Source: Limisphaera sp.
GTDB taxonomy: Bacteria; Verrucomicrobiota; Verrucomicrobiia; Limisphaerales; Limisphaeraceae
Length of the DNA stretch: 64,000 bases
Direction of reading: 5' to 3'
Assembly (NCBI GenBank): GCA_025057755.1
Contig: JANWVC010000003.1
Coordinates: 1 to 64,000 of the forward strand
This document shows, piece after piece, positions 1 through 5,151 of the stretch. The position numbers and the translations under genes were made by a program. Numbering within the stretch: position 1 is the stretch's first letter; every line of letters starts with the position of its first letter. The notes below the pieces were generated by a model. It did not search any database. It was not told the DNA's origin and saw only the letters and a list, made by a program, of their open reading frames with translations.

Positions 1-767
1 CCGAAATAATTCCCCGCCCCGCCGCCAGCGATGGTCGCTCCGATCACCGTATTGGAGACGAAGTTGCCCGCGTAACCGCCAATAACATTGGGGGCGTTGT
101 TGGTGTTCGGCTCCAGTCGCAACGCCCGCTGGTTGTTCACCTGCAACACGAGGGGTTGGTTGTCGGTCGTGCCCAGGAAGTGCGTGCCCGGTGTCGTGCC
201 CGCGTTGCCGTCGGTCTTCCAAAACGTCGTGGCAAACGATCCCGCGTTCACGTCTGCCGCTGTGATCGTGGCGTCGGCAATCTTGGCGCTGGTGACCGAG
301 CTGTCCTGCAGCCCCGCCGTGCTCACCGCGTTGGCGCTCACGCCAGCAGCGGTGGTCGCCGTGGCGGCCGCCCCCGCGTTGGCCGCCCGTATGGCGTAGG
401 GCGCGGACGTGAGTGGCTGGCGGGGACTGAGCGTGACGAAGCTCAGCAGGTTCGTGCGCAAGGCGATCTGCAGCCAGCGGGCCGCGCCGGGGAACTGGTC
501 GCCAAAGTCCAGCGACACGGTGAACAGGCCGTTGGTGACCCCCACCGGCGACACCGTGAGCGTGCTGCCCAGTTGGATGCCTCCCGAGGCGGCGTTCCAG
601 AGGCTGAATTGCATCTCGGCCAGGCCGGTGTAGGGGGCGCCGCCAGCGTCCAGCCGGCCCTGGTAGGTGAACGCCGTGCCCTGGGCGTGGCAGGTTGAGG
701 GTTGAGGGTTGAGGGTTGAAAAAAGCGCCAGCGCAAGCGCGGCGCCCATCTTGCGGTTCGCTTTCAT
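1..767 (-). CDS. Secreted FTYQGRL-type protein, C-terminus beyond window edge
   Basis: The frame is open from an ATG at 767 to the left edge, so only about 255 N-terminal residues are seen. It begins MKANRKMGAALALALF, a signal peptide with a likely cleavage after CHAQ, then GTAFTYQGRLDAGGAPYTG. This opening is typical of a family of large exported proteins known from Verrucomicrobiota whose function is not established. Further on come NGLFTVSLDFG, LSPRQPLTSAPYAI and FLGTTDNQPLVLQVN, followed by glycine-rich NVIGGYAGN and GGGAGNYFG turns like those before adhesin-like or beta-solenoid segments. The signal peptide is built on a 7-bp tandem DNA repeat (693-720) that stays in frame here. A frameshifted relative lies immediately upstream (827-1683). 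Export is well supported; the role is unknown, with surface or extracellular attachment only a guess. Confidence 0.8.
   Translation of the reverse strand, partial: MKANRKMGAALALALFSTLNPQPSTCHAQGTAFTYQGRLDAGGAPYTGLAEMQFSLWNAASGGIQLGSTLTVSPVGVTNGLFTVSLDFGDQFPGAARWLQIALRTNLLSFVTLSPRQPLTSAPYAIRAANAGAAATATTAAGVSANAVSTAGLQDSSVTSAKIADATITAADVNAGSFATTFWKTDGNAGTTPGTHFLGTTDNQPLVLQVNNQRALRLEPNTNNAPNVIGGYAGNFVSNTVIGATIAGGGAGNYF
693..720. repeat. 7-bp tandem repeat inside a signal-peptide coding region
   Basis: Four adjacent near-perfect copies of GGTTGAG on the plus strand (TCAACCC on the coding strand) encode the segment STLNPQPST of the signal peptide of the protein starting at 767. The unit is not a multiple of three, so gain or loss of one copy would shift the reading frame near the start of the gene. 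Confidence 0.85.
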
Positions 768-826: not shown

Positions 827-1683
827 TCAGGGCTTGAACAGGCGGTAAAACTTCGTCGGCAGCGTGACCGGCACGGTCACCGGATTGGTCCAACCACTGG
901 GCGCGTTGGCCCAGGCGCCGCTCGCGAGGTTCAGCCGCTGTTGCAAAACCGAGGTAATTGCCCGCCCGGCCCCACCAATGGTCGCGCCCACCACCGCGTT
1001 CGGCAAATAATTGCCAGCATAACCGACGATGACTTTTTAACACTGTTGCTGCCCGTTGGCTCCAACCGCAGTGCCCGCTGGTTGTTCACCCGCACCTTGA
1101 AGGGCTGGTTGTCCGTGGTGCCGAGAAAATGCAGCCGGGTGTCGTCTCTATGTTGCACGCAATCCGCCACAGCGTGGCGTCGAAACTGGCCGCATTCGCA
1201 CCCCCGCGTGATGCTCCATTCCGCAATCTTGGGCCTAGTGACCAAGCCTTCCTGCACCCCCGCCGTGGCCACAGCAACCCACAGCCACACTCGTGGCCGA
1301 AGCAGCCTTCCCGGCATCCGCCGCCCAAATCGCATACGGCGTCGCCGTGTACCGCACCCGCGGGCTGAGCGTCACAAAACTCAGCAGATTCGTCTGCACC
1401 GCAATCTCCAGCCACTGATCCGCCCCGGGAAACTGATTTCCAAAGTTCAGGGTCACGGCAAACACGCCATTGCTGACCCCCACCGGCGACACCGTGAGCG
1501 TGCTGCCCACCCGGCTGCACCCCCCGCTGGCCGCGTCCCAGAGACTGGACTGCATTTTAGCCAGTCCGGTGTAGGGGCGGCCGCCAGCGCCCAGCCGCCG
1601 CTGGTAGGTGAAGGCCGTGCCCTGGGCGTGGGCACTGGCTGTACCCAGCGAGGGCTGGATGCCAAAGGCCACATCTTCCTCAT
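827..1683 (-). pseudogene. Frameshifted FTYQGRL-type protein with a different C-terminus
   Basis: This is a degraded relative of the protein starting at 767. The likely start is ATG 1683 (MRKMWPLASS), but the signal peptide continues in another frame as LGTASAHAQ, then GTAFTYQRRLGAGGRPYTG. Homology follows that frame to about 1290 (SPRVRYTATPYAIWAADAG), moves to another frame around 1150-1260 (FLGTTDNQPFKVRVN), and after about 1030 moves again to GYAGNYLPNAVVGATIGGAG. There it joins VLQQRLNLASGAW and ends in PTKFYRLFKP at a stop at 827-829. At least three frame changes are needed. The join between the GATIGGAG part and the VLQQR part suggests an internal deletion or recombination, since this tail matches the C-terminus of the neighbour ending at 5210. 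Sequencing error could explain one frameshift but hardly all. Possible bounds are approximate. Confidence 0.7.
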
Positions 1684-1773
1684 GGATGGGCTGACCTGCG
1701 AGGTAAATTGGCAATTCTCTGAAGGCATGGTCCCCGCTCATCGAAGGTTTTCTCGTTCGAATGAGTTTTTATT

Positions 1774-4700
1774 TTACGGAGCCTGAAGACGGAAAAAGAG
1801 CGCTGGAGCAGTCTCAACCGGCACACGGAATGTGTTGATCCCATCCCGGGCGACGATGTTGGTGTACGCGCCCCACCGGCTGGTACTGAGATCGCCATTG
1901 GTCCAAACCGTGTACCTGAGGCCTTGCAGACCCCAAAAACCGACCTCGACCTGTTCGCCCAAACGGCGCACAAAGGCAAAAGCCAAGGGGGGAGCTGCCA
2001 CCACGGCTGGACCAAACTCACTGGTATTACCGGTGCGCTCCTCCGTGGCCGTGGCGGCAAACCACCAACCGATCCAATTGCCGGGCACTTGAAGCCAAAA
2101 ATCGCTCCGACCGGTCTCGTCGGTGACCACGCGTTGTCGAGCCACGAGAATTTGGCCCTCTCCATGGCCTGAGGCATCCGGCTGCCTACAACGAAAGAGC
2201 TCCACCCAGTAAGCCTGCATGGGCGAGGTTTCCAACCGACCGGTGACCAAGGTGTCAATGCTGGTAGTAATCGCAGTCAAAATTGGGAAATTTTGCAAAT
2301 CGTTCGGACCTTCATCCGCATCCAGGGGATCATTGGGTGTGACTCCGGAGGGCAGGTCGTTCAAGCCCACGAGGTCCACGCCCAAGCCGCCGTTGCCATA
2401 AATGGAGTTGGCCTGGATCCGAATGCCCTTGCCAGTTCGAACCTCCACGCCATGCGCGGCGTTGAAGGCAATTCGGTTTGCCCATTCCAGCCGTTCCGGG
2501 TCTCCCAAGCGAGCCCCGGTGGTGTGGCGCAATGAAACCCCGTGGCCGCCATTGGGCAGTGCTCCAGTGCCGGGGCGGTCTGTGCCGACGAGGTTTTCAT
2601 AAAGCACTGCGCCGTCAGCCGCAAAGAGTTCAACGCCGTGCCTGCCGTTACCCGAGATCACGTTGTGCACCAGTTGGCAACCTGGCGCGCTACTGACAAA
2701 GACGCCATTTGTACGGTTGGGCACCGCCCGGAGTCCGGCTGCGTCTGTCCCCACATAGTTGCCTACAAGATGATTGCTGCGGGTGCCCGCACCCGTGGTC
2801 GGGGGAGCCACAATGGCCACACCATGACTGCCATTCCCGGAGACAATATTTGGCCAAGAGGAATCGCCCAAGATATTACCATGGGCATCTCCGGTAATGT
2901 GAACTCCATCTCCCTGGTTGCCGAGTGCAGCATCGCCGGAGGCGGTTAACCCAATGAAGTTGCCGAGACAAACATTGCCAGAGGCAGCCGGCCCGTCCAT
3001 CAGCACGCCATGGCCGGCATTGCCGGAGATAAGGTTGCGTGCTTGCGGCCCGCGGCCGCCAATTTGGTTCCGCGCGCCCCGGATTCGCACGCCAGCCAAT
3101 TGATTGGGAATGGAGGATGTCCCAAAAAGATCGGTGCCGATAAAGTTGTTCTGAACATGATTGGTTTCGGCTTCCACGAGCACGCCGGGTCCATCGTTGC
3201 CGGCAATTAAATTGCCCGCGCCCAGGGGCCCGGCACCAATCCAATTGCCGGGCGACGCCACACGAAGTCCGCCCGCAGCATTTGCCAGCGCGGTCCTGCC
3301 GCCGGCCCGCGTGCCAATGCGGTTGCCGAAGATTTCATTCGAACCGGGTTCGACGCCGTTGCCCCCCACCAGCTCCACACCAAATCCGCCATTGCCGGAG
3401 ATCAGGTTGCCCTCGCCCGCATCACGTCCTCCAATGCGATTGGAGGAAGCGCCTTCCGAAATCCGGACACCACTCTGACCATTGCCCCGCTCGGGAAACA
3501 ACGGCTGCAGGTAAGGCAATCGTTTTGTGCCACTAATGTCCGGACCGATGATATTACCGCGGACGCGATTCTGTTTGGTGCCGGAGCCTGTGATGTGGAC
3601 GCCGTGATTGTGATTACCCGAGATCACGTTTCCTTCACCGGGAGCTGGCCCGCCGATGTCATTATCATGGGCGCCGTCACTCAGATGGACGCCGTCCCCC
3701 ACGCCGGCAAAGGTGCCGTTGGGCAAGGCCTCGCCTCCCGTGATGTCGGTGCCGATCAAGTTCCCCAGCACCCGGTTGCGCTCGGTCTCCCCGCCCCACA
3801 GGGCGATGCCGTGAATCCGGTTGTTGGCGATGAGATTCCCTTCCCCCGGATTTGCCCCGCCGATCCTATTGTCCCGCGCCCCATTCCGCAGGAGCACGCC
3901 ATAGTGATTGCCGCTAAATTGCAGGAGCCCGAAGGGAAGATGGTGAGTGCTGCCGGCTGTTCCGTCCGGATGGGTACCAATCCGGTTGCCGAGCACACGA
4001 TTGAAAGACGATTGGGGTCCCTCAATCCGGATGCCAGAACCTCCTCCCACAATCACATTGGCTTCGTCGGCCGCGGGCCCGCCGATCTGATTGTAAGCCG
4101 CGTCTTCCAACACCACGCCGGAACTGACACCTTCAACGGACAGTCCACACGGAGTCCAACCCTGCGCAACGCGACAGAAAACCTCCGGAGGCACCAGACC
4201 AAGCCAGTTGCCCAGGACCGCATTGGAATGAGCATTTCGTAACAAGACGGCACCCTCTAGATCGTGCATCCCGCCTCCCGGCTGTGGCGGGGGCACGCCC
4301 ACGCCAGCCAGGTAATTCCGGGCGCCCGCAGATGAGCCTCCCACTCGATTTCCATGGCTTCCCTCGAGAACCACACCCGGTCCTTGATTGAGGAACGCCG
4401 CCGGGGCCAGCCCGGGCAAACCAATAAAATTGCCTTCAACAACGTTTGAGACCGAGTTCAGAAATCGGATCTGCCAGGCAGTATTGTCCGAGATCAGATT
4501 CCTGTGACTCGGATCGAGTCCGCCTATCCGAACTGCCCGGCCGTTGGTCACCGTAATGCCGCCCCAGTTGGGTTCGCCCAGAGATGTGGAGGCATCCACG
4601 CCGATCACACAACTTTCGACCACTACGTTCCGGGCATCCGCCACGAAAATTGCGCTGCGCAGGTTGGTCATATTACCGCCGGGGCTAAACATCACCAGAC

Positions 4701-5151
4701 GTAGTCCACGGATCGTAACGAAGTCTGCCCGCACTTCCAAACCGTGCATACGGGGTTCAGCCCCGGGCCCCTCCGGGCCGCCCGAGCCGGGGCCTCCGCC
4801 ACCGCCAGCATGGGTCGGAATGCCATGGCCGTTCAACGTTACCAGATTGGTGGCATTGAAGCCCTGCAGCAGGGAGTTTGGCGCACTGCCGGGTTGGGTT
4901 AAGCCGTCAATTGTGAGGGCATCCGTGATCGCGGGTAAACTACTGGCCAGCATGATGACATGCACCACATTCGAGGGCGGAATGTTGAACTGAATCACAT
5001 CGTGACCCGGGTTGGCATTGGCGGTCAGAATGGCCTCGCGGAGCGAGCCGGGGCCTGAATCTTGGGCAGTCGTCACAACCAACGTCGCCGCCGAGGAGGA
5101 AGTCATCCCCACTACGATGAGCAAACCTGCCGCATAAGCCACGGTTTTCAT
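1774..5151 (-). CDS. Large secreted right-handed beta-helix repeat protein
   Basis: 1125 residues from ATG 5151. The frame stays open further upstream, but the signal peptide (MKTVAYAAGLLIVVG...SSAA) begins at this ATG, which decides the start. After the signal comes TLVVTTAQDSGPGSLREAI, the usual opening of secreted parallel beta-helix proteins. Most of the rest is repeats of the form NxIGGxxPGEGNLISGN alternating with NFIGTDxxGxxxLPN; about nine IGG-type copies can be seen at a spacing of very roughly 60-90 residues. Such repeats form coils of a right-handed beta-solenoid, as in pectate-lyase-like folds and adhesins. The C-terminal 60 residues are not repeats and end TAPALFFRLQAP, a variant of the tail shared by several exported proteins here. 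No catalytic motif was recognised, so enzyme versus adhesin stays open. Confidence 0.88.
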   Translation of the reverse strand: MKTVAYAAGLLIVVGMTSSSAATLVVTTAQDSGPGSLREAILTANANPGHDVIQFNIPPSNVVHVIMLASSLPAITDALTIDGLTQPGSAPNSLLQGFNATNLVTLNGHGIPTHAGGGGGPGSGGPEGPGAEPRMHGLEVRADFVTIRGLRLVMFSPGGNMTNLRSAIFVADARNVVVESCVIGVDASTSLGEPNWGGITVTNGRAVRIGGLDPSHRNLISDNTAWQIRFLNSVSNVVEGNFIGLPGLAPAAFLNQGPGVVLEGSHGNRVGGSSAGARNYLAGVGVPPPQPGGGMHDLEGAVLLRNAHSNAVLGNWLGLVPPEVFCRVAQGWTPCGLSVEGVSSGVVLEDAAYNQIGGPAADEANVIVGGGSGIRIEGPQSSFNRVLGNRIGTHPDGTAGSTHHLPFGLLQFSGNHYGVLLRNGARDNRIGGANPGEGNLIANNRIHGIALWGGETERNRVLGNLIGTDITGGEALPNGTFAGVGDGVHLSDGAHDNDIGGPAPGEGNVISGNHNHGVHITGSGTKQNRVRGNIIGPDISGTKRLPYLQPLFPERGNGQSGVRISEGASSNRIGGRDAGEGNLISGNGGFGVELVGGNGVEPGSNEIFGNRIGTRAGGRTALANAAGGLRVASPGNWIGAGPLGAGNLIAGNDGPGVLVEAETNHVQNNFIGTDLFGTSSIPNQLAGVRIRGARNQIGGRGPQARNLISGNAGHGVLMDGPAASGNVCLGNFIGLTASGDAALGNQGDGVHITGDAHGNILGDSSWPNIVSGNGSHGVAIVAPPTTGAGTRSNHLVGNYVGTDAAGLRAVPNRTNGVFVSSAPGCQLVHNVISGNGRHGVELFAADGAVLYENLVGTDRPGTGALPNGGHGVSLRHTTGARLGDPERLEWANRIAFNAAHGVEVRTGKGIRIQANSIYGNGGLGVDLVGLNDLPSGVTPNDPLDADEGPNDLQNFPILTAITTSIDTLVTGRLETSPMQAYWVELFRCRQPDASGHGEGQILVARQRVVTDETGRSDFWLQVPGNWIGWWFAATATEERTGNTSEFGPAVVAAPPLAFAFVRRLGEQVEVGFWGLQGLRYTVWTNGDLSTSRWGAYTNIVARDGINTFRVPVETAPALFFRLQAP

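Follow-up and report, generated by a model that had tools for sequence, protein, structure and literature searches.

The window considered here is the whole stretch of DNA analysed, 64,000 nucleotides starting at the first base of a contig of Limisphaera sp. It opens with a truncated minus-strand gene for a secreted protein, whose signal peptide contains a short tandem array of a heptanucleotide. The features at this end of the window are as follows.

3-767, minus strand: secreted-protein gene, truncated at the contig end (the first base of the window is the first of the contig)
684-767, minus strand: signal peptide MKANRKMGAALALALFSTLNPQPSTCHA, from alignment with 12 homologous signal peptides
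693-719, minus strand: heptanucleotide array, on the coding strand three TCAACCC units followed by TCAACC, encoding STLNPQPST
1042-1741, minus strand: adjacent paralogue, frame-broken and without the array, whose two matching segments, 1283-1639 and 1042-1275, differ in frame

Tandem Repeats Finder reports the array at 693-719 with a period of 7, 3.9 copies and 100% matches over 27 perfect bases, and STLNPQPST occupies codons 17-25 of the minus-strand open reading frame 767..3, which reads through the array. An earlier sequence-only reading had placed a four-unit, 7-bp repeat in the signal peptide of the gene starting at 767, and both the repeat and its location are confirmed; its limits need correction, as the array ends at 719, leaving base 720 outside, and begins at codon 17 rather than at about codon 20. 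The array has a run of 20 period-7 matches, and in 60 trinucleotide-Markov shuffles of the window no run at any period from 4 to 15 exceeds 11. Across 464 kb of this genome no other perfect tract of period 4-18 reaches 13 matches, and about three consecutive TCAACCC units occur a single time in the 3.63-Mb assembly, at 693-719. An assembly artefact as the origin of the array is ruled out, as TCAACCC arrays are also found in isolate records and in one complete genome.

In the signal peptide a hydrophobic core (ALALALF) is followed by the array, which forms the c-region, and then by CHA/QGTAFTYQGRL, where the cleavage site before QGTAFTYQGRL was set by eye from the A-x-A pattern and not by a predictor. 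The nearest homologue of the host protein (L047), from another family of the same order, is 67% identical, at least 795 amino acids long and ends in a C-terminal Peptidase_S74 chaperone domain. The cut protein in the window has no Pfam match, and no clear orthologue of its gene was found in the one same-genus genome compared. Residues 210-255 of the host protein recur at 100% identity on contig C18; the two contig ends share a stretch (window 3-140, C18 58735-58872) that codes for 46 identical residues, and thus the array-bearing gene probably continues on C18. The frame-broken paralogue at 1042-1741 lies directly beside the array-bearing gene and is a tandem duplicate in decay, and beyond it positions 1774-5148 (minus strand) encode a large right-handed beta-helix protein (Pfam NosD, Beta_helix).

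Homologous signal peptides were sought in 320 genomes of the order with a frame-agnostic pattern that required two heptamer-like units and, no more than 25 nt after them, codons for AQGTA. The pattern matched 10 of the 320 genomes, that of the window among them, in seven genera, and its reversed control matched none, yielding 13 distinct signal peptides with the window's own included, a count that misses decayed or more distant arrays because the search needs two near-intact units by AQGTA. STLNPQPS-like segments do therefore recur in verrucomicrobial signal peptides, as the sequence-only reading had stated. The spacing from the first unit to AQGT is identical in 11 of the 13; the signal peptide at L287 is 3 nt shorter, and that at L275 retains its last two units alone, with the register unchanged. 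In the closest homologue the array reads TCCACCC TCCACCC TCAACTC TCAACC, differing from that of the window by substitutions and by no insertion or deletion.

In a tree of the mature domain, array-bearing members of this family are scattered, requiring nine changes against a mean of 9.4 when labels are shuffled, and the grouping of array-bearing signal peptides as a single clade is rejected (p-AU 0.0014). Simple descent thus does not hold as the source of the identical spacing. More than one number of gains is compatible with the tree, in which the well supported branches by themselves require just two changes. Possible histories are repeated gain, repeated loss and 5'-end exchange between paralogues. 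The identical spacing itself would favour 5'-end exchange between paralogues or a strict constraint on length.

The array is far from peculiar to this gene family. About three consecutive TCAACCC units are present in 41 of 249 Limisphaerales genomes, mostly in frame within genes, and relatives such as G146, G162 and G208 carry many such loci per genome, compared with one in the genome of the window. A special tie of the repeat to signal peptides or secretion is ruled out, as most copies lie elsewhere. Array-bearing proteins identified through NCBIfam include LeuS, LeuA, MetG, PrmC, SelB, Der, MutL, MiaA, GlyS, GluQRS, GlnS, HisC, QueE, an RluA-family synthase, LarC (where the array falls between the two named domains), Mfd, CinA, AroB and GatA, and array sites in GlyS, SelB, PrmC and AroB recur across different families of the order. 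Among the matches listed, TCAACCC arrays are also found in Planctomycetota, Bacteroidota, Acidobacteriota, Chloroflexota and Pseudomonadota, frequently within long open reading frames on the sense strand, a statement about open frames and not about coding signal. These occurrences support the earlier suggestion that the signal-peptide array might be one copy of a spread repeat.

Reading frame was assessed for 95 arrays of the order, with frame calls drawn from codon usage over 150-nt flanks. Both flanks of 58 arrays were called as sense coding, and 51 of these arrays keep the frame. Of the seven rows that differ, L088 and L264 lie at the C-terminal end of AroB and L236 at a gene start; L032 is a possible contig chimera, L218 contributes two rows of one composite array, and the call for L265 is weak. 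At L032 (G046:C34) and L036 (G026:C6) a kinase-like sequence after the array is common to both and the preceding gene differs in L032, a difference that could reflect recombination or misassembly at the repeat. None of the 95 arrays lies inside an antisense gene, as expected for a repeat whose reverse strand contains TGA in each frame within three units.

The choice of unit can be followed at a single site in glycyl-tRNA synthetase (GlyRS), in a loop between FFIKPDE and WGWEAWHKY (L291-L320), by comparing species of one genus. Depending on the species, this loop holds (TCAACCC)n, (AACATCG)n, (GGAAATC)n, (ACTCGAC)n, (CCGCAAT)n, palindromes or nothing, and all of the variants are in open frames. 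A preference for period 7 is also evident in a spectrum taken over stretches of seven genomes totalling 1.26 Mb, of which 464 kb come from this genome and 0.8 Mb from relatives. Perfect tracts with at least 13 matches number 13 at period 7, a count slightly inflated because three of the stretches came from contigs in which an array had been located beforehand. At other periods the counts are zero to two (periods 4-6, 8-11 and 13), four (period 14), six (period 12) and 24 (period 18, in one genome), and shuffled sequence has none. The period-18 tracts lie in 200 kb of G146:C17 (L341-L350), against none in most other genomes, and are possibly one repetitive gene. Among 58 relatives, TCAACCC arrays occur in eight and AACATCG arrays in nine, and the permuted control CTCCAAC is absent from all. 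Some (AACATCG)n arrays are long, reaching about 20 or more units in G050 (C4, C9, C16, C25) and G037 (C323, C496), and some of these are at contig ends.

Taken together, the array in the window is probably one copy of a dispersed heptanucleotide repeat that resides inside genes as in-frame filler, and not an on/off switch. TCAACCC and its near variants would arise at, or spread to, many sites in Limisphaerales and other bacteria, and an intragenic array would survive when the net change in length keeps the frame. The composition of the unit would ease such survival: on the sense strand TCAACCC has no stop in any frame, so that an array may be tolerated as filler, and since 7 and 3 are coprime all frames yield the same cyclic peptide, STLNPQP, predicted to act as a short, polar, proline-rich linker. 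In the AQGT family this segment would simply serve as an ordinary signal-peptide c-region before the cleavage site, with its length fixed. Frame and length are probably under purifying selection, with the peptide itself presumably neutral, and individual arrays may have formed by slippage, by copying of an array between loci or by 5'-end exchange between paralogues.

Arrays could alternatively be transferred from locus to locus by a sequence-biased process such as templated repair, gene conversion or some unknown enzyme, and would then be mobile in effect. The presence of TCAACCC at unrelated loci in distant families and other phyla, the replacement of one heptamer by another at the GlyRS loop, the missing permuted unit and the failure of array-bearing signal peptides to form one clade all agree with such transfer, but independent slippage biased to some units could give the same picture, and as an account of the array in the window transfer is unlikely. 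Independent slippage biased toward 7 nt could account for the period but would not alone account for the recurrence of particular units. A broader and doubtful extension is that a sequence-biased process seeds new sites from a small vocabulary of heptamers (TCAACCC, AACATCG, GGAAATC, CGCAATC and others), through which core proteins of Limisphaerales and other phyla would gain and swap in-frame linkers, with the GlyRS loop as a record of the process.

A phase-variable locus would be one in which gain or loss of a 7-bp unit by slippage shifts the frame of the signal peptide and toggles a secreted or surface protein, as the sequence-only reading had proposed for a secreted one. As in such loci, the array lies close to the 5' end of its gene, here one for a secreted protein, and the length of its unit is no multiple of three, but the ON and OFF frames expected among related genomes are not seen: none of the 13 homologous signal peptides, from 10 species and retrieved without regard to frame, is frame-shifted. 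The array has just four units, and those of most homologues are diverged, features that would lower slippage, and core genes, for which an OFF state should be detrimental, carry TCAACCC arrays in frame. Invariant copy number, or change in threes, was named at the outset as the outcome that would refute switching, and between species this is what the shared spacing and the single 3-nt difference amount to. Such constancy is compatible with short-lived variants inside a population, and a contingency locus is nonetheless a very improbable reading of the array; more generally, a frame-shifting repeat near a gene start need not be a phase switch.

Least probable is an effect on expression through putative folding of the G-rich template strand, (GGGTTGA)n, into a G-quadruplex: the array offers one GG and three GGG runs separated by 4-nt loops, and quadruplex formation is reported for G-rich heptamers from Xanthomonas and Nostoc (PMC4692102), but the full GGG runs number three, short of four runs of at least three G, and the heptamers CCGCAAT and ACTCGAC of the GlyRS loop are without such runs.

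Rickettsia palindromic elements are short repeats found as in-frame inserts in many protein genes. Unlike the TCAACCC arrays, they are palindromic, much longer and not tandem heptamers. No relevant paper was found on the TCAACCC unit or its peptide, or on heptamer repeats in Verrucomicrobia, and the closest parallels come from other lineages. As a 7-bp tandem that is longer than chance, the array has the make-up of the STRR-like heptanucleotide long simple sequence repeats. In cyanobacteria that form heterocysts, STRR (short tandemly repeated repetitive) heptanucleotides have been reported within the gene for RNase P RNA (Vioque 1997, as listed in PMC4748335). The two systems have in common tandem heptanucleotides of several sequences that are sometimes intragenic; dispersal over many loci of one genome applies to relatives such as G146, G162 and G208, the genome of the window having a single copy. 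The TCAACCC arrays differ in their units and lineage, and in lying mostly in frame in protein genes, core genes included. The heptamers GGGAATC and GGGGA(T/C)T of Xanthomonas and Nostoc likewise form G-rich tracts, typically of about four units; they have been studied mainly as intergenic, quadruplex-forming elements, and phase variation was judged unlikely for them by the authors (PMC4692102).

That heptamer repeats are in excess in bacterial genomes has been recognised since 2007, and no mechanism for it is accepted (PMC4692102, PMC4679880). With a stop-free strand, in-frame copies in core genes, a distribution across phyla and replacement by other units at the GlyRS loop, TCAACCC offers a workable system for studying how such repeats originate and spread. 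Another close parallel is the TAACTGA direct repeat found in Beggiatoaceae, Cyanobacteria and Bacteroidetes (PMC4679880). There, too, one heptamer extends across distant phyla, related heptamers are rare and the mechanism of spread is not known (PMC4679880). Most TAACTGA repeats lie between genes, a short way upstream of a start codon, and they include stop codons in the forward orientation (PMC4679880); the array in the window, by its unit and its intragenic position, falls outside that class, and TCAACCC arrays in general, unlike TAACTGA repeats, are mostly intragenic, on the stop-free strand.
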